NCBI RefSeq assembly: GCF_013401515.1
Contig: NZ_CP058529.1
Span: 1,736,001-1,800,000, forward strand
Reading direction: 5' to 3'
DNA from: Halorarum halophilum
Lineage (GTDB): Archaea > Halobacteriota > Halobacteria > Halobacteriales > Haloferacaceae
Length of the DNA stretch: 64,000 bases
In this document: positions 45,821 through 54,310 of the stretch, piece by piece
Layout of the letters: each line of letters opens with the position of its first letter
How positions within the stretch are numbered: the first letter of the stretch is position 1
Program-made: the position numbers and the translations under genes
Notes under the pieces: model-generated
Told to the model about the DNA's origin: nothing
The model's input: the letters and a program-made list of their open reading frames with translations, nothing else
Databases searched by the model: none

Positions 45821-47617
45821 GTGGTCACGCTGGTCTCTCCCCGCGCCTACTGGCGGTTCCCGCTCGTGGTGTACCGCTTTCTCCCGCTCATCGTCGCCTA
45901 CGCCCGCGACCGCCGACGCTTCCTCCTGTTCGGGCCGTCCCGGTCCGTCTCGCCCGCCGTCCGTCGCGAGCGGGCGTCGGTGCTGCTCGACACGCTGTTG
46001 ACGCTCGGGCCGACGTTCATCAAACTCGGGCAGATCCTCTCCACCCGGCCGGACGTCCTCCCGCCCGAGTACATCGACGTGCTGTCCACGCTCCAGGACG
46101 ACGTGCCGCCGGCACCCTGGCCCGAGTCCCGGGAGGTGCTGGAGGCGGAACTCGGCCCCGTCGAGGAGGTGTTCGACGAGTTCGACGTCGACCCCATCTC
46201 GGGGGCGAGCCTCGGGCAGGTGTACGTCGCCACCTACGAGGGCCAGCGCGTGGCGGTGAAGGTTCGCCGACCGGGGATCGAGGACCTGGTGAACGCCGAC
46301 CTCCGGGTCATCAAGTGGTCGCTCCCGGTGCTCTCGCGGTTCGTCGGGCAGGGCCAGGCGTTCTCGCTCGAGAACCTCGCGGAGGAGTTCGACCGCACCA
46401 TCACCCAGGAGATGGACTACGAGCGGGAGCGCGCGATGCTCGAGCAGATCCGCGACAACTTCGCGGACGAGGACCGCATCGTCATCCCCCACACGGTCGG
46501 TGCCGCCTCCGGCCCGCGGGTGCTCACGATGGAGTACCGCCCGGGGACGAAGATCAGCGACACGGCCGCCCTCGACCGGGCGGGCATCGACCGGACGGAG
46601 CTCGCGCGGACGCTCCAGGAGGCGTATCTCAAGATGATCATCGACGACGGCACCTTCCACGCGGACCCCCACCCGGGGAACCTCTCGGTCACCGACGACG
46701 GCCGGATCATCTTCTACGACTTCGGCATGTCGGGCCACGTCGACCCGTTCGTCCAGGACCGAATCGTCGACTTCTACGTCTCGATCGCGAACCAGGACAT
46801 CGACGGCATCCTGGACGCGCTCGTGGCGATGGGGACGCTCTCGCCGGAGGCCGACCGGGCCGTGATGGCGGACGTGATGGAGCTCGCCATCGCCGACGTG
46901 CGCGGCGAGGACATCGAGCAGTACCGGGTCCAGCAGGTGATCGAACAGGTCGAATCCACCATCTACGACTTCCCGCTCCGACTCCCGCAGAACATGGCGC
47001 TCGTCCTCCGCGTCGCGACCGTCGTAGAGGGGGTGTGTGTCACCCTCGACCCGAACTTCGACTTCATCGAGGTGGCGACCGACTACCTCCGGGAGGAGGG
47101 CTACCTGGAGGAGACCGCGGAACGGCTCGTTCGCGACGCGGCCCGACAGACCCGCGACACCGCGGAGGCTATCTTCACCGTCCCGCCGAAACTCGACTCC
47201 GTCCTCGACTCGGTCCAGCGCGAGGACCTGACGGTGAACGTCACCCTGACCGACGAGAGCCGCATCATCGACAGGCTCGCCAAGCGGCTCGCCTACTCCA
47301 TCCTGACCGCAGTCGGCCTCCTGTCGGCGTCCATCGTCTACTCGTTCGGCGACACGGACGTCGAGATGTACCTCGCTGTCGCCATCGTCGTCCTGACGCT
47401 CCCGATGGCGTTCTTCCTCTACCGCTCGTTCCGCACGAAGCGACGCGGCATCCAGGCCAGCCCGCAGTTCACCCGACAGAGCATGCGCGAGCGGCAGCGG
47501 ACGAGCGGCGCGGAGGGTGCCGACGTGAGCGGGGGTGACGGTGCGATGATCCCCGGGGCGACGACGCGGACCGGCGTCGCCGAGAGCGAGGACGGGAGCG
47601 ACGTGCGTCGGAAGTAG
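45821..47617 (+). CDS. ABC1/UbiB (AarF) family atypical kinase
   Basis: A 598-residue membrane-associated protein kinase-like protein. The KxGQ extension FIKLGQILSTRPDVLPPEY, the Ala-rich loop GASLGQVYVATYEGQRVAVK with the catalytic Lys, EMDYERERAML, the catalytic FHADPHPGNLSVTDD and YDFGMSGHV are all present. Two C-terminal membrane helices (LAYSILTAVGLLSASIVYS, MYLAVAIVVLTLPMAFF) are followed by a disordered tail. UbiB proteins support isoprenoid quinone and lipid handling. GTG start, 6 bp after hsp20. A hairpin (CGGACACG/CGTGTCCG, 47643-47668) follows the stop. Confidence 0.94.
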   Translation: MVTLVSPRAYWRFPLVVYRFLPLIVAYARDRRRFLLFGPSRSVSPAVRRERASVLLDTLLTLGPTFIKLGQILSTRPDVLPPEYIDVLSTLQDDVPPAPWPESREVLEAELGPVEEVFDEFDVDPISGASLGQVYVATYEGQRVAVKVRRPGIEDLVNADLRVIKWSLPVLSRFVGQGQAFSLENLAEEFDRTITQEMDYERERAMLEQIRDNFADEDRIVIPHTVGAASGPRVLTMEYRPGTKISDTAALDRAGIDRTELARTLQEAYLKMIIDDGTFHADPHPGNLSVTDDGRIIFYDFGMSGHVDPFVQDRIVDFYVSIANQDIDGILDALVAMGTLSPEADRAVMADVMELAIADVRGEDIEQYRVQQVIEQVESTIYDFPLRLPQNMALVLRVATVVEGVCVTLDPNFDFIEVATDYLREEGYLEETAERLVRDAARQTRDTAEAIFTVPPKLDSVLDSVQREDLTVNVTLTDESRIIDRLAKRLAYSILTAVGLLSASIVYSFGDTDVEMYLAVAIVVLTLPMAFFLYRSFRTKRRGIQASPQFTRQSMRERQRTSGAEGADVSGGDGAMIPGATTRTGVAESEDGSDVRRK

Positions 47618-47994: not shown

Positions 47995-48846
47995 TCAGTC
48001 GACGTACCGTTCGAGGACCTCGCGGGACCGCTCGGCCGCCCGGTCCGGTTCGTCCGGGTACGTGTACAGTTCGAGGGTGGCGAACCCGTCGTAGCCGACG
48101 TCGTCGAGCGCGTCGAATATCGCCCCGAAGTCGAGGTCACCCTCCCCGGGGATGCGGTGGTAGTGTTTGCCCCGCCGCCCCCCGACGATGTCCTCGAGGT
48201 GGACGCCCGTGATGTGGCCGGCACACCGGCGGACCGCCTCCGCGGGGTCCTCGCCGTACACCGCCGCGTGGCCGACGTCGAGGTTGACGCCGAGCGAGTC
48301 GCGTCCGACGTCGTCGATGAGTTCCAGCACCTCGTCGGTGCACTCGACCAGCAGTTCGGGTTCGTACTCGATGCCCACGTCGACGCCCTCGGACTCGGCG
48401 TAGTCGAGGATCTCGTCGAGCGACTCCCGCAGGTACTCGTGGGCGCGCTCGGGTGGGGTGCCCGGCAACGGTCGACCGGTCGCGACGCAGACGGCCGGCG
48501 CCCCGACTGCCGACGCGAGGTCGATGGCCCTCTTCGTGTACTCGACCCGCCAGACCCGGTCGTCCTCGTCCCCGGTGACGATGGTGGGGTCGAAGAACGA
48601 CGACGGCGGCGCGTCGTCGTAGTAGCCGGTCGCCGTGTTCGCGTTGACGTTCGAGACCGACAGTCCCGTCTCGTCGAGCGCCTCGCGCACGTCCGCGAGG
48701 TCGTCGTCGCCGAACCAGGGGAAGAACGCGTGTGGCTCGTCGCCGAGCAGTTCGACGCCGTCGTAGCCGTGGCGTCCGATCCGCCGGACGGCCTCCGGGA
48801 GGTCGAATCGGGTGTAGGCGTTCGTCGAGAAGGCGAGTTTAACCAT
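47995..48846 (-). CDS. Sugar-phosphate isomerase/epimerase (EboE-like), copy 2
   Basis: A 283-residue TIM-barrel protein of the xylose isomerase-like/AP endonuclease 2 superfamily. The start MVKLAFSTNAYTRFDLPEA, EYEPELLVECTDEVLELIDD, GVNLDVGHAAVYGEDP and GHITGVHLEDIVGGRRGKHY give the Glu, Asp-His and His metal ligands. It is about 40% similar by eye to the gene at 49864-50739, with the same order of motifs. It is the last gene of the minus-strand run, 71 bp after the UbiA-like gene. The substrate is unknown; the context is an ebo-like cluster. Confidence 0.9.
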   Translation of the reverse strand: MVKLAFSTNAYTRFDLPEAVRRIGRHGYDGVELLGDEPHAFFPWFGDDDLADVREALDETGLSVSNVNANTATGYYDDAPPSSFFDPTIVTGDEDDRVWRVEYTKRAIDLASAVGAPAVCVATGRPLPGTPPERAHEYLRESLDEILDYAESEGVDVGIEYEPELLVECTDEVLELIDDVGRDSLGVNLDVGHAAVYGEDPAEAVRRCAGHITGVHLEDIVGGRRGKHYHRIPGEGDLDFGAIFDALDDVGYDGFATLELYTYPDEPDRAAERSREVLERYVD

Positions 48847-48917
48847 GGTACACGGTCTTAGCCGGGGGTTCAAATCGTTTCTCCCGACGCCCGGAAGATC
48901 GCCCGCATCGGAATGGT

Positions 48918-49862
48918 TCACGTCACGTCGAACACGCCGGAGAGCACGACCGCCGGGACGAGGAACGCCAGCACCGCGAGCGCCCACGCAGATCCCGCGA
49001 TCGCGGCGAACGCCGCGTCCAGCACGACCAGCCCCAGCACGCACGTCCCGACGGCGGGTCCGATGGTCCCCGGCGACGGGTCGGCGTACGCCGCCCGAAG
49101 CGCCCGGCCGGTCCACGCGACGAAGCCGACGAGAAGCGCTCCCGAGAGCGCGACGTCGACCAGCGGGGGGGAGCGCAGGAAGAGGAGGCCGACGAGTCCG
49201 AGAACGGCGACGGCCACCCCGGCCACTCCAGTCGACACCGCACCCCGGTCCGCGTCGCCGGTCTCGCTCTCGGCCATGGACGTGACCCCGGCGATGTAGA
49301 GGAGGACGATCGCGGGTACGGCGAGCGTCCACGATGGAAGCTCCGTCGGACGGACGGCCGCCGTCGTTCCCAGCAGGACGTTCAGCCCCCTGCACGCGCC
49401 CATGGTCAGGAAGCCGAGCGTCGACCCCTTGAACGCGCCGTCGTAGAGCAGCACGGCGAGGGCGACACCGCCGGCGACGAGGCCGGCGGTCGCGCCGCCG
49501 GCGACCGCGGCGACCGCGACGCCGCCGGCCAGCAGGCTCCCGCCGAACACGACCGCCGCCGGTCGGGAGACGTCGCCGGAGGGGATTGGTCGCTCCCGGC
49601 GCTCGCGGGCGTCCTCCGGCGCGTCGAAGTAGTCGTTCAGCGTCGTCCCCGCGCCGTACAGCAGCACCGAGGCGGCCGCCAGACCGGCGACGGTCCCGAC
49701 CGAGACGGCGTGGCCGGCCGCGACGACGAGCGCGACGCCGAGCAGGACGTCCGGCGGGGCGGTGAAGAGGTTGGGGAGTCGAACCAGCGTGGCGTACGCG
49801 GCGAGCGGACGCCGGCTGTTCCCGTCCGCGTCCACCTCGTGGTGTTCGGACGGGACCGTCAT
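48918..49862 (-). CDS. eboC: UbiA-family prenyltransferase-like protein (EboC-like)
   Basis: A 314-residue membrane protein with about nine helices. The first Asp-rich motif is NDYFDAPED (NDxxDxxxD), coordinating Mg-diphosphate in UbiA enzymes, followed by RRERPIPSGDVS. The second loop is YDGAFKGSTLGFLTMGACRG, then LNVLLGTTAAV, the form typical of the EboC branch. UbiA proteins transfer prenyl groups to aromatic or glycerol acceptors. The gene sits 1 bp after an isomerase gene and belongs to an operon with a TatD-like hydrolase. EboC assignment by motif and context. Confidence 0.88.
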   Translation of the reverse strand: MTVPSEHHEVDADGNSRRPLAAYATLVRLPNLFTAPPDVLLGVALVVAAGHAVSVGTVAGLAAASVLLYGAGTTLNDYFDAPEDARERRERPIPSGDVSRPAAVVFGGSLLAGGVAVAAVAGGATAGLVAGGVALAVLLYDGAFKGSTLGFLTMGACRGLNVLLGTTAAVRPTELPSWTLAVPAIVLLYIAGVTSMAESETGDADRGAVSTGVAGVAVAVLGLVGLLFLRSPPLVDVALSGALLVGFVAWTGRALRAAYADPSPGTIGPAVGTCVLGLVVLDAAFAAIAGSAWALAVLAFLVPAVVLSGVFDVT

Positions 49863-49863
49863 G

Positions 49864-50739
49864 TCAGGCCCAACCGTGCTCCCGCAGGTACCGCATCGCG
49901 TCGTGTGCGGTCTCCTCGGCGGTCTCCCCGTACGGGTACAGTTCGACGGTGACGAAGCCGTCGTAGCCGCTCCCCTCGACGGTGCTCAGGAAGCCGTCGA
50001 TGTCCATCGCGCCCTCGCCGAGCTGGGTGTGCTCGTGTCGCCGGTCCGCGGGAATGTCCTCGATGTGGTAGTGGCTCGTGTACTCTGCCAGTTCGTCGAC
50101 AAGTTCGGCGGGGTCCTCGCCGACCGAGAAAAAGTGCCCCGCGTCGAAGTTGCAGCCGACGCTGTCGGAGTCGACCCGGTCCATCAGGTCGAGGAAGTCG
50201 TCGGAGGTCTCGATCAGGAGTTCCGGCTCGGGCTCCACGAGCACGTCGACGCCGACCTCCTCGGCGGTCGGCGCGACCGCCTCCAGCCCCTCGACGAACT
50301 CGTCCAGCGCCTCGTCGTCGGACTTCCGCTTCGGCACCGGTCCGCCGGGCGGGACGGAGATGTGGGGGGCGCCGAGCGCGGCCGCCGTCTCCAGGGCGTC
50401 CTTCGTGTGCTCGACCCGCTTCCGGCGGTCGTCCGCGTCGAGTTCGACGAACGACGGGTGGTGGAATGCCTCCGTGTCGCGGCTGAACTCCGCCTCCTCG
50501 CTCTCGGCGCTCGGCTCGATCGCGCTGAGCATGAACGCGTTGCAGTTGCACACCTCGAGGCCGTGTTCCTCGAGCAGGCCCACGACGCGCTCGACCTCGT
50601 CCTCGTCGGCCGTCCCCGGGTACAGGTGCGGGTCGTCGAGGAGGATCTCGATCCCGTCGTAGCCGGCGTCGCCGAGCACCTCGACGGTGCTGTCCAGGTC
50701 GTAGTCGCGGAACGCGTTGGTGGAGAACCCGAACCGCAT
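49864..50739 (-). CDS. Sugar-phosphate isomerase/epimerase (EboE-like), copy 1
   Basis: A 291-residue TIM-barrel protein. The start MRFGFSTNAFRDYDLDS parallels the other copy. Metal-site motifs are VLVEPEPELLIETSDDFLDL, GCNFDAGHFFSVGEDP and SHYHIEDIPADRRHEH; CNCNAFMLSAI carries extra Cys residues absent in copy 2. Spacing is 2 bp from the TatD-like gene and 1 bp to the UbiA-like gene, so the three are almost certainly one mRNA. A member of the EboE group, substrate unknown. Confidence 0.9.
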   Translation of the reverse strand: MRFGFSTNAFRDYDLDSTVEVLGDAGYDGIEILLDDPHLYPGTADEDEVERVVGLLEEHGLEVCNCNAFMLSAIEPSAESEEAEFSRDTEAFHHPSFVELDADDRRKRVEHTKDALETAAALGAPHISVPPGGPVPKRKSDDEALDEFVEGLEAVAPTAEEVGVDVLVEPEPELLIETSDDFLDLMDRVDSDSVGCNFDAGHFFSVGEDPAELVDELAEYTSHYHIEDIPADRRHEHTQLGEGAMDIDGFLSTVEGSGYDGFVTVELYPYGETAEETAHDAMRYLREHGWA

Positions 50740-50741
50740 GG

Positions 50742-51542
50742 TCAGGGTTCGTACTCGAAGTTCGGCGACTGGCTGAAGAACTCGTACGGGTTCTCGAACA
50801 CGACCTTCCGCACCTCCTCGCGGTCCCAACCCCGGTCGAGCATCTCGTCGCGGGCCTTCGGCACCGCCAGTGGATCGGAGGGGTCCCAGTCGGCGGCGCT
50901 GTTGAACAGCATCCCGTCGGTGCCGTACTCCTCCAGCAGGTCGATGGCCGCCGAGGCCTCGATCTTCCCGGGGTAGAGCGTGAACCCGACCCAGCAATCG
51001 GTCCCGACGGCCGTGTCGATGGTGTTCTCGGTGTTGTGGTCGATGACGATGCGCTCCTGGGTCACGCCCTCGTCCTCGATCATCTCGACGATTCGCTCGG
51101 TCCCCTGCGGTTTGTTCGTGTGCGGCGTGTGGACGATGACCGGGAGTTCGCGCTCCTCGGCCATCCGAAGCTGGCGGCGGAAGGCGTCGCGTTCCTCCTG
51201 CGTGTCCTGGTCGAGCCCGATCTCGCCGACGCCGACGACGTTCTCGCGGTCGAGGTACTCGGGGAGGCGGTCCATCACCGCCTCGGCCATCTCGGGGTAG
51301 TTCGCCTCCTTCGGCTCGAGCCCGATGGTGACGTAGTGGTCGACGCCGGCGGCCCGCTCGGCGCGCTCGGTCTCGAAGTCGATGATCTGCTCGAAGTAGT
51401 CGAAGAACGAGCCGGGGTGCTGTTTGTCCGTCCCGCTCCAGAACGCCGGCTCGATACAGCACTCGATGCCGGCCCGACGGGCCCGCTCGTAGTCGTCGCT
51501 CGAGCGGGACACCATGTGCATGTGGGGGTCGATAACTCGCAT
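50742..51542 (-). CDS. TatD-like metal-dependent hydrolase (EboB-like)
   Basis: A 266-residue amidohydrolase-superfamily TIM barrel. Metal ligands: His-x-His in MRVIDPHMHMVSRSSDD, Glu in VVGVGEIGLDQDTQEERD, His in LPVIVHTPHTNKPQGTE, His in RIVIDHNTENTI, and a late Asp in MLFNSAADWDPSDP. The start at 51542 gives the DPHMHM motif near residue 6. EboB in bacterial ebo clusters belongs to this superfamily. It is the first gene of the minus-strand operon and faces the inositol-phosphate synthase gene across 192 bp. Confidence 0.92.
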   Translation of the reverse strand: MRVIDPHMHMVSRSSDDYERARRAGIECCIEPAFWSGTDKQHPGSFFDYFEQIIDFETERAERAAGVDHYVTIGLEPKEANYPEMAEAVMDRLPEYLDRENVVGVGEIGLDQDTQEERDAFRRQLRMAEERELPVIVHTPHTNKPQGTERIVEMIEDEGVTQERIVIDHNTENTIDTAVGTDCWVGFTLYPGKIEASAAIDLLEEYGTDGMLFNSAADWDPSDPLAVPKARDEMLDRGWDREEVRKVVFENPYEFFSQSPNFEYEP

Positions 51543-51734
51543 TACAGGTCGGGCGAACCGCCAGGTGTGCTTCAGTATACACCGGCTATCCATCGGGAGC
51601 GCATCGGGTAGGATTCATCTAACTGGGATAGGGCCGACTGTTCGTCCAGTAAGCGAATTCGACGAGTACGAAGTGGACCGTCGACGACCGGTAGCAGCGT
51701 TATAACAATCCGACTAACTTGGCAGTGGGGCTAC
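51543..51734. promoter_or_regulatory. Divergent promoter of the ebo-like cluster
   Basis: The 192 bp drive two operons. On the plus side, agcgttataacaatcc (about 51697-51712) is a TATA-like element about 30 bp before the synthase ATG. On the minus side, a gtatactgaagc stretch (about 51569-51580) is at a similar spacing for the TatD-like gene. The sequence between is richer in A/T than the genes. A shared regulator is possible. Confidence 0.5.
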
Positions 51735-52949
51735 ATGGAACGAACTGGTGTGTGGCTCGTCGGCGCGTACGGCAACGTGGCGACCACGGCGATCGTCGGC
51801 GCGCGCGCGATCGCTCACGACGTCGCGAACACGACCGGCATGGTGACGGCTCGACCGCCGTGTACCCGACTGGACCTCCCCGACCTCCGCGACATGGTGT
51901 TCGGCGGTCACGACGTGCGCGACACGTCCCTCCTCGAGACGGCCAGGCGGCTCTCGGCCGGTGGTGTTCCCACGGCCGACGTCGTCGAAACGGTCGCCGA
52001 CGACCTCGCGGAGATCGACGAGAACGTCCGGGTCGGAACCGCGGTCAACTGCGGACGGGCGGTGACGGACCTCGCGGACGAGACGCTGGACGCTCCGGAC
52101 GTCGGGGACGTCGTCGGACAGATCCGCGACGACTACCGGTCCTTCGCAGACGAACACGACCTCGACAGGGTGGTCGTCGTCAACGTCGCCTCGACGGAAC
52201 CGGGCGTCGCCGACCCCGACCGGTACGACACCCTCGATGCGTTCGAGCGGGCCGTCGAGGCGAACGACCGCGACCTGCCGGCCAGTTCACTCTACGCCTA
52301 CGCCGCGCTCGTCGAGGGACACCCGTACGTGAACTTCACACCCAGCACTGGAGCGGCGCTGGGCGGCCTGCGCGAACTCGCCGAGCGCGAGAACCTCCCC
52401 AACGTGGGACGGGACGCGAAGACCGGCGAGACGCTGCTCAAGTCCACGCTCGCACCGATGTTCGCCGCCCGGAACCTCCGGGTGCGCTCCTGGGAGGGTC
52501 ACAACATCCTCGGCAACGACGACGGCCTCGTGCTGGAGAACGACGCCAACAAGGCCGGCAAACTGGCGAGCAAGGGCGACGTGCTGGAGGGGATCCTGCC
52601 GGACATCGAGCACAACCGGGTGCGAATCGACTACGCGCCGCCGCTGGGCGATTGGAAAACGGCGTGGGACGACATCCGGTTCGACGGGTTCCTCGACACG
52701 CGAATGAAACTCCAGTTCACCTGGGAGGGCTCGGACTCGGCGCTGGCGGCGCCGCTCGTGCTGGACCTCGTCCGGCTGGTCGCCCACGCCGACGAGTACG
52801 ACGAGGGCGGCCTCCAGCCGCAGCTGGCGTCGTTCTTCAAGGCTCCCCTCGGCGTCGACGACCACGACTTCGCACACCAGTTCGACCTGCTCGAACGGTA
52901 CGTGGACCGCCACGCCGGCGAGGGCGACGACGGTCGGGTTCGGCGATGA
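51735..52949 (+). CDS. Inositol-3-phosphate synthase family protein
   Basis: A 404-residue NAD-dependent sugar-phosphate cyclase-type protein. The Rossmann motif is GVWLVGAYGNVATTAIVGAR, NVASTEP lies near residue 150, the catalytic-domain motif is YVNFTPSTGAALGGLRELAE, and RSWEGHNILGNDDGLVLEN with KAGKLASKG are hallmarks of the MIPS family. In haloarchaea such genes serve di-myo-inositol phosphate or lipid head-group synthesis, but here the neighbours are ebo-like. It overlaps the phosphodiesterase gene by 4 bp (ATGA). Confidence 0.93.
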   Translation: MERTGVWLVGAYGNVATTAIVGARAIAHDVANTTGMVTARPPCTRLDLPDLRDMVFGGHDVRDTSLLETARRLSAGGVPTADVVETVADDLAEIDENVRVGTAVNCGRAVTDLADETLDAPDVGDVVGQIRDDYRSFADEHDLDRVVVVNVASTEPGVADPDRYDTLDAFERAVEANDRDLPASSLYAYAALVEGHPYVNFTPSTGAALGGLRELAERENLPNVGRDAKTGETLLKSTLAPMFAARNLRVRSWEGHNILGNDDGLVLENDANKAGKLASKGDVLEGILPDIEHNRVRIDYAPPLGDWKTAWDDIRFDGFLDTRMKLQFTWEGSDSALAAPLVLDLVRLVAHADEYDEGGLQPQLASFFKAPLGVDDHDFAHQFDLLERYVDRHAGEGDDGRVRR

Positions 52950-54310
52950 CCGGGTCGCCCGCCGGCCGAGTAGTCGTCCTCGACGTGGTCGGGCTCCAGC
53001 CGGACCACGTGACGGCCGACCTCGCTCCCGAACTCGCCTCCCTGTTCGGCGGCACGACCGCACTACGCCCGGCGTTCCCCGCGCTGACGGTCCCGGCGCA
53101 GACGACGCTCGCCACGGGACAGTCGCCGGGTGAGCACGGCGACGTCGCCAGCGGCGAGTACGACCGGGCCACCGACGAGGTCGCGTTCTGGGAGCGCGAC
53201 CGCGACGGCCGGAACCGGCTCTGGGAGACGGCCCGGGAGGCCGGAACGACGACGGGTGCGCTCTTCTTCCAGCACCTCATCGGCACCGACGCCGACGTGG
53301 CCGTGACGCCGTCGCCCATCGAGGACGAGGACAACAACATGCTGGAGATGGACTGCTGGAGCAACCCGGACGGGTTCTACGACGACCTCAGGGAGGAGTT
53401 CGGTCACTTCCCCCTGCACAACTACTGGGGGCCGGCGGCCGGCGAGGCGAGCAGCGAGTGGATCCTCGACGCGGCGGCGACGGCGGTCGACCGGTTCGAC
53501 CCGGACCTCCTCTGGGTGTACGTCCCGCACCTCGACTACGCCGGACTCCGACACGGCCCCGGCGAGGAACTGCGCTCGGCCGTCGGCGAGGTCGACCGAC
53601 TCGTCGGCGAGTTCCTCGACGCGCTGCGGGCGGACGACCGGTGGGACGAGACGGTCGTGAACCTCGTCAGCGAGTACGGCTTCCACGACGTCGAGACGCC
53701 CGTGTTCCCCAACCGCGCCCTCCGCGAGGCGGGGCTGCTCTCGGTCACGGACGACGGGGAGGGCGGCGAGGAGGTCGACCTGGTCGACTCCGACGCCTTC
53801 GCGATGGTCGACCACCAGGTCGCCCACGTCTACCTCGACGACGGCGTCGACGAAGCGCGGGAGGCCCTCCGGGGGCTCGATGGCGTCGACGAGGTCCTCG
53901 ACGAGGATGGGAAGGCCGAACGCGGCGTCGACCACCCGAACGCTGGCGACCTCGTGCTCGTCGCCGAACCGACCGCGTGGTTCCAGTACTACTGGTGGTT
54001 CGACCGCGGGGACGCGCCGTACTACGCGACCGACATGGACATCCACGCCAAACCGGGCTTCGACCCCTGCGAACTGTTCTTCGGCGACGAGGGGCTGGCC
54101 TCCCTCGACCCGACGAAGGTCGGCGGCTCCCACGGGCGCGTCGACGACGAGGCGTTGGGCGTCTACGGGCTCGGCGGCCCGGCGGCGCCAGACGGCCCGA
54201 CCGACGACGACGCAGTCGACGCCCGGTCGGTCGCGCCGACGATCGCTTCGCTTCTGGGAATCTCGGACGAGGTCGCGACCTCGTCCGACTACCCCTCGCT
54301 GCTGGAGTGA
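52946..54310 (+). CDS. Alkaline phosphatase-superfamily phosphodiesterase (EboF-like)
   Basis: A 454-residue type I phosphodiesterase/nucleotide pyrophosphatase. The nucleophile Thr is in AFPALTVPAQTTLATGQSPG; metal ligands are in VVVLDVVGLQPDHVT, YVPHLDYAGLRHGPG and LVSEYGFHDVETP, with a late His in MVDHQVAHVYL. No signal peptide or anchor is seen, so it is cytoplasmic. EboF of bacterial clusters belongs to this superfamily. It probably hydrolyses a phosphoester made by the cluster. Confidence 0.92.
   Translation: MTGSPAGRVVVLDVVGLQPDHVTADLAPELASLFGGTTALRPAFPALTVPAQTTLATGQSPGEHGDVASGEYDRATDEVAFWERDRDGRNRLWETAREAGTTTGALFFQHLIGTDADVAVTPSPIEDEDNNMLEMDCWSNPDGFYDDLREEFGHFPLHNYWGPAAGEASSEWILDAAATAVDRFDPDLLWVYVPHLDYAGLRHGPGEELRSAVGEVDRLVGEFLDALRADDRWDETVVNLVSEYGFHDVETPVFPNRALREAGLLSVTDDGEGGEEVDLVDSDAFAMVDHQVAHVYLDDGVDEAREALRGLDGVDEVLDEDGKAERGVDHPNAGDLVLVAEPTAWFQYYWWFDRGDAPYYATDMDIHAKPGFDPCELFFGDEGLASLDPTKVGGSHGRVDDEALGVYGLGGPAAPDGPTDDDAVDARSVAPTIASLLGISDEVATSSDYPSLLE

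Follow-up and report, generated by a model that had tools for sequence, protein, structure and literature searches.

Ebo gene clusters, named in 2016, are recognised by a combination of EboA (or EboG), EboB, EboC, EboD, EboE and EboF (Yurchenko et al. 2016, PMC5133447). An actinobacterial operon of related content, which includes a myo-inositol-1-phosphate synthase (MIPS), has already been annotated gene by gene in public records. In the ebo papers searched, few of them from subscription journals, we found no archaeal ebo cluster described and no discussion of the MIPS-type form. Here we analyze six intact open reading frames, all ATG-started and arranged in two divergent operons, at positions 47995-54310 of a 64,000-nucleotide stretch of the Halorarum halophilum genome (NZ_CP058529.1, positions 1,736,001 to 1,800,000; hereafter, the window). 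An initial annotation made from the sequence alone had regarded this locus as an archaeal version of ebo with a function undescribed in archaea, and none of the papers searched describes the locus there. Based on gene content and phylogeny, the locus belongs to a variant of ebo that we define here from actinobacteria and Gemmatirosa, encoding an ebo-clade MIPS, xylose-isomerase-like TIM-barrel proteins (ISO), EboB, EboC, and EboF, but no EboD. The relationship to ebo therefore held, although the nearest arrangement is the actinobacterial MIPS-type operon and not the cyanobacterial or pseudomonad form, and the known range of the ebo family is extended to archaea.

Relationship of the six proteins to ebo

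The proposal that the UbiA-like protein is EboC is supported by its phylogeny. All Ebo UbiA proteins, including those from haloarchaea, stood apart in the tree from the six UbiA paralogues that the window's genome also encodes (support 95/96), and the placement in a rival clade that had been set beforehand as a refutation did not occur. MIPS-type UbiA proteins also grouped together, with moderate support (91/77 and 90/65). The best NCBIfam model for the window protein was EboC (195 bits), followed by SCO3242 (161 bits), with both scores below the respective cut-offs (250 for EboC). This cut-off is narrow, since the UbiA proteins tried from accepted ebo clusters mostly score below it as well (Azospirillum 89, Deinococcus 96, Streptomyces 111, and Gemmatirosa 126 bits), with Aureibacter alone exceeding it (343 bits). 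Thirteen positions were invariant in a set of 29 Ebo UbiA sequences. The first Asp motif, NDxxDxxxD, is intact, while the second Asp-rich motif is replaced by T...E in every Ebo UbiA aligned. The AlphaFold model of the window protein (predicted local distance difference test score, pLDDT, of 93.7) displayed the UbiA fold, with digeranylgeranylglyceryl phosphate (DGGGP) synthase 6m31 and Aeropyrum UbiA as the nearest solved structures to this predicted one. Identity as a DGGGP synthase, MenA, or heme O synthase type was rejected because the paralogues from the same genome fall outside the Ebo clade and the second Asp motif is gone. By its phylogeny and motifs, the UbiA-like protein is thus a member of the EboC/SCO3242 clade.

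The ebo-like cyclase suggested by the initial annotation is not EboD, but its identity as an inositol-phosphate synthase stood, and both Pfam domains together with the catalytic residues identify it as MIPS. Its alignment with the A. fulgidus enzyme (1u1i, E=3.6e-82) spans the length of the protein, and the catalytic residues known from mutation are retained; N257, K276, K280, K308, and K369 are kept in more than 95% of ebo-type MIPS. The MIPS tree joined the haloarchaeal proteins and actinobacterial ebo MIPS as sister groups (100/94) and left Archaeoglobus MIPS outside this pair. The two isomerases, in contrast, could not be sustained as EboE: ISO1 and ISO2 scored 20-24 bits with the EboE model (cut-off 250), compared to 412 bits for Streptomyces EboE, and a 100% branch separated EboE from both. 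Of the two, ISO1 is the closer to the ISO gene found in actinobacterial ebo operons (Shimodaira-Hasegawa-like approximate likelihood ratio test, SH-aLRT, 86, moderate), and ISO2 forms its own haloarchaeal clade. Both TIM barrels retain motifs that typify metal-dependent epimerases and dehydratases of this fold, and in ISO2 the EPE, DxGH, H, and E motifs characteristic of its metal site are present.

Homologues of EboB and EboF were present, as had been proposed. The window TatD-like protein shares 42-47% identity with its Streptomyces and Gemmatirosa EboB counterparts, with the EboB metal-site residues D/H/E/H/H/D kept in more than 95% of 123 sequences, and the window phosphodiesterase-like protein (PDE) shares 46% identity with the EboF encoded in the Streptomyces operon. 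The AlphaFold model of the latter indicates a nucleotide pyrophosphatase/phosphodiesterase (NPP) fold, with 7n1s as the nearest structure. While the NPP nucleophile threonine (T48) and D197 are kept, three positions that hold metal ligands in NPP are occupied by L/Q, E, and Y in the aligned EboF proteins of ebo clusters (SEYG for DHG). The E-Y-G signature of the window protein was found in more than 95% of 115 such proteins, and D289, H290, H294, H367, and H396 were invariant in a 30-sequence set. The chemistry of EboF may differ from that of a two-zinc phosphodiesterase, possibly reflecting a different active site.

Plain ebo membership was rejected, as EboA, EboD, and EboE were each tested for and none was found. 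Consistent with the initial annotation, in which no EboA was seen, the EboA profile model matched nothing in 38 cluster-bearing haloarchaea, yet it detected Streptomyces and Azospirillum EboA at 144-151 bits. EboG, sought by tblastn in named loci only, was not seen in haloarchaeal loci, and the gaps within the operons are too small to hold EboA or EboG. The DHQ_synthase Pfam domain expected of EboD was absent in 11 of 12 cluster-bearing genomes, including that of the window, with MIPS present instead, and the window locus, whose two TIM barrels fail the EboE model, yielded no true EboE. A quick EboB tree placed haloarchaeal EboB with EboA-less bacteria (EboG-type and Planctomycetes-Verrucomicrobia-Chlamydiae (PVC)-group sequences), but a careful tree was not decisive on this grouping.

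Cyclase type and distribution of the cluster

The absence of EboD follows a rule that holds across ebo loci. Among loci with an Ebo UbiA, drawn from the best 80 of an EboB-based scan of genome contigs, with plasmid loci in addition, the 24 EboD loci all lacked ISO, the 49 MIPS loci, a count dominated by actinobacteria, all had it, and none carried both cyclases. Eight actinobacterial loci contained ISO with no adjacent cyclase, and an ebo-type MIPS (58-59% identity) was encoded elsewhere in six of the six genomes tested. A similar separation was observed in Bacterium isolate R3-B46 (L108), where ISO1- and ISO2-like genes, EboB, EboC, and PDE are found at the locus and MIPS (43%) elsewhere in the genome; among the bacterial loci seen, only this one combines ISO1- and ISO2-like genes, and it is the nearest bacterial match to the haloarchaeal gene set. 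Two haloarchaeal loci (L087 and L094) had no MIPS in the locus stretch read. In the EboB tree, the cyclase type switched at least two times (starred branches), with three switches in the best tree. MIPS and ISO therefore appear to replace EboD as a unit. Two unrelated ring-forming enzymes occupying the same locus argues that a cyclitol is the shared intermediate, and this repeated, clean replacement points to a ring alcohol for which inositol is a likely precursor that can be labeled and traced.

MIPS is also paired with the same ISO family outside ebo, in Hymenobacter (L073), Roseomonas (L078), and, by sequence match, Methylobacterium (L075). Neighbors of the Hymenobacter and Roseomonas pairs are annotated as YcaO, Gfo/Idh/MocA, and PIG-L deacetylase proteins, indicating an unnamed inositol-based pathway.

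Orthologues of UbiA, TatD, and MIPS were each searched for separately across one set of 292 Halobacteria. UbiA was found in 38 genomes, TatD in the identical 38, and MIPS in those 38 plus one other, so that a lack of co-occurrence in haloarchaea, likewise named beforehand as a refutation, was not seen; the exact overlap of the two 38-genome sets would arise by chance with a probability of ~10^-48 were the genomes independent, which they are not. All six genes occurred together in 30 of the 37 loci read, mostly in the same divergent arrangement. The remaining seven comprise three at contig ends (L033, L039, L045), three in genomes that encode MIPS at another site (L034/L236, L046/L239, L052/L237), and one (L047) without PDE in the stretch read. 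The clustering of the six genes is not due to chance. Counting any Pfam MIPS raised the number of genomes to 40, of which 38 have the cluster, so that MIPS in Halobacteria is nearly restricted to cluster genomes; of the two cluster-less genomes, G208 (L225) has an ebo-type copy alone and G172 (L224) a MIPS from a different clade. Carriers include Halorubrum saccharovorum, Halobellus inordinatus, Halorussus aquaticus, Halopiger djelfimassiliensis, Salinigranum salinum, Halogeometricum limi, and Halobaculum salinum. The cluster is present in 17 of 77 haloarchaeal genera and is plasmid-borne in Halobaculum, Halocatena, Haladaptatus, and Natronococcus, a patchy distribution that fits an accessory trait.

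One genome contains a second, decayed copy of the cluster (L235, G272:C12), in which MIPS is split over several frames and the TatD gene beside it is intact. Compared to the Halobaculum salinum locus (L074), the window proteins are 94% (EboB), 86% (MIPS), 84% (ISO2), 74% (ISO1), 72% (PDE), and 51% (UbiA) identical; going by this pair, the prenyltransferase UbiA is unusually fast-evolving.

The layout given in the initial annotation was confirmed from the sequence (Table 1). On the minus strand, from 51542 downwards, the order is TatD, ISO1, UbiA, and ISO2, with gaps of 2, 1, and 71 bp, and on the plus strand MIPS and PDE overlap by 4 bp. All six assignments match Pfam, with E values from 1.7e-19 to 6.6e-51. 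Candidate archaeal TATA boxes are located ~33 bp 5' of the MIPS start codon (TTATAA) and ~33 bp 5' of that of TatD (GTATAC). An ABC1/UbiB-family kinase gene at 45821-47617, running towards the cluster, was weighed as a partner and rejected, as its family was not recurrent in the flanking survey.

Table 1. Features of the ebo-related locus in the window.
Feature	Position	Strand	Evidence
ISO2, xylose-isomerase-like TIM barrel (AP_endonuc_2), 283 aa	47995..48846	-	Pfam 4e-47
EboC-like UbiA-family prenyltransferase, 314 aa	48918..49862	-	best NCBIfam model EboC, 195 bits
ISO1, xylose-isomerase-like TIM barrel, 291 aa	49864..50739	-	Pfam 2.6e-47
EboB-like TatD-superfamily hydrolase, 266 aa	50742..51542	-	42-47% identity to EboB
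Divergent intergenic region, 192 bp	51543..51734	.	sequence
Myo-inositol-1-phosphate synthase (MIPS), 404 aa	51735..52949	+	Pfam NAD_binding_5 + Inos-1-P_synth
EboF-like type I phosphodiesterase/nucleotide pyrophosphatase-fold protein (PDE), 454 aa	52946..54310	+	Pfam Phosphodiest 1.2e-49

Possible products and roles

Based on the data presented above, we lean, with some reserve, towards the interpretation that this haloarchaeal MIPS and ISO-type variant of ebo makes a membrane-anchored cyclitol that is prenylated and derived from inositol. The predicted first step, conversion of glucose 6-phosphate to inositol phosphate by MIPS, is well supported by the catalytic residues, and from there on we infer the reactions, the product, and its role. 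Isomerization or dehydration of the cyclitol, or of its keto form, would fall to ISO1 and ISO2, and its coupling to a polyprenyl chain would fall to the UbiA-like EboC. Protecting or phosphate groups would be stripped or swapped by EboB and EboF, and the resulting lipid would serve a process at the outer face of the membrane. Yurchenko et al. likewise argued for a cyclitol acceptor in EboD-type clusters (PMC5133447). Several points weigh against this interpretation. No ebo cluster has a known product, and the locus encodes no inositol dehydrogenase, which an inosose-type ISO substrate would require. Furthermore, EboA and EboE are required for the Nostoc phenotype (PMC6282210), and neither was found at the locus. 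Prenylation is not assured for a UbiA protein without the second Asp motif, although the UbiA protein of a marine-bacterial ebo cluster (Ubi-297) farnesylated 8-hydroxyquinoline-2-carboxylate in vitro (PMC9235831); this acceptor is aromatic and not a cyclitol, so that the cyclitol acceptor for UbiA is one that we infer.

The same genes might instead make the inositol head group of a membrane phospholipid, archaetidylinositol, with UbiA acting as the lipid synthase. A myo-inositol group is said to occur in the polar lipids of haloarchaea, with HVO_B0213 listed as MIPS in that context (PMC8305020), and the predicted structural proximity of UbiA to DGGGP synthase is compatible with such a function. 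However, we consider this improbable, given that the genome encodes six other UbiA proteins and that of the locus falls in a different clade, that the locus contains no CDP-alcohol transferase, and that its MIPS groups with bacterial ebo MIPS and not with the Archaeoglobus enzyme; moreover, a cluster found in 38 of 292 genomes, and on plasmids in four genera, is unlike core lipid genes. Degradation of a cyclitol or keto-sugar, with UbiA and MIPS as incidental members, would account for the resemblance of the TIM barrels to sugar epimerases and inosose dehydratase and for the presence of Gfo/Idh/MocA, ThuA, and 3-keto-disaccharide hydrolase genes among some neighbors. Yet MIPS is a biosynthetic NAD-dependent cyclase, MIPS and UbiA are among the most faithful members of the cluster, and their pairing holds across domains, making a catabolic function highly improbable.

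A further possibility overlaps with the prenylated cyclitol that we favor and adds a definite role, namely that such a lipid acts as a carrier, delivering a metabolite, cofactor, or metal out of the cell for secreted oxidases, as proposed for ebo and the scytonemin monomer. In a survey with a purpose-built specific profile, 17 of 38 genomes (10 of 17 genera) encoded a cupredoxin-domain protein within the ~19 kb that was read on and around UbiA, whereas copy numbers predict ~1 genome; the chance probability calculated for independent genomes is too small, as the genomes are related. These neighbors (L033, L035, L036, L037, L041-L045, L048-L050, L053, L057, L063, L066, L068, L086) share the signature GWxGxxP...NPTLxL with invariant copper ligands H, C, H, and M, and several, secreted by twin-arginine translocation (Tat), are fusions with a glucose/sorbosone-type dehydrogenase, with a ThuA/DUF7133 protein, or with a 3-keto-disaccharide hydrolase. 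However, they may merely mark sugar-catabolic islands, and the association is a lead only, as this family is widespread in haloarchaea (125 of 292) and none of its members neighbors the cluster in the window. A cross-domain association with multicopper oxidases was rejected, as a motif scan of 84 bacterial loci (~9 kb on each side) found none. Two related Streptomyces plasmids (L070, L071) carry a ScyD/ScyE-family gene before the ebo MIPS and a multicopper-oxidase gene after the operon, but this is no general pattern. A carrier role is possible but unlikely, and the scytonemin-export function known from cyanobacteria cannot be transferred to the haloarchaeal locus. More speculative, and rather doubtful in our view, is the combined proposal that one kind of prenylated cyclitol lipid is common to bacteria and haloarchaea but is reached through unrelated starting enzymes, either EboD or MIPS together with a TIM-barrel isomerase, and that its haloarchaeal role lies at the cell surface, in the service of secreted sugar dehydrogenases with copper domains. 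Genetic work is feasible in some haloarchaea, where no scytonemin pathway could confound results.

Comparison with known systems

The haloarchaeal MIPS belongs to the same family as that of Archaeoglobus (AF_1794, 1u1i), with the catalytic residues kept and 40-46% identity, a span that includes the 43% published for Haloferax volcanii HVO_B0213 against AF_1794. It falls in a different clade, and in the genomes searched no ebo-like cluster contained the Archaeoglobus-type enzyme. A precursor cluster in archaea, formed by TatD and MIPS of Archaeoglobus type, was also considered and rejected, with the two genes at least 27 kb apart where they share a contig, in the cases checked, and TatD scoring ~160 bits. 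With EboG-type ebo (Deinococcus, and Gemmatirosa with an EboG-like gene and MIPS), the haloarchaeal locus shares the absence of EboA; unlike in these bacteria, which retain EboE, no EboG was seen in haloarchaea, and Deinococcus uses EboD. Compared to classical ebo (eboA-F of cyanobacteria, Bacteroidota, pseudomonads, and eustigmatophyte plastids), EboB, EboC, and EboF homologues are likewise clustered, but MIPS and ISO stand in for EboD, and EboA, EboD, and EboE were not found. The closest counterpart is the actinobacterial MIPS-type operon (Streptomyces NBC_00663 and NBC_00019, Nonomuraea, Micromonospora; SCO3242 family). While actinobacteria add EboA and a true EboE in a single operon, haloarchaea, in which neither was found, have a second short TIM barrel and mostly two divergent operons; in both, however, MIPS, UbiA, a short TIM-barrel isomerase, TatD, and PDE are brought together in one locus, and their MIPS proteins are sisters.

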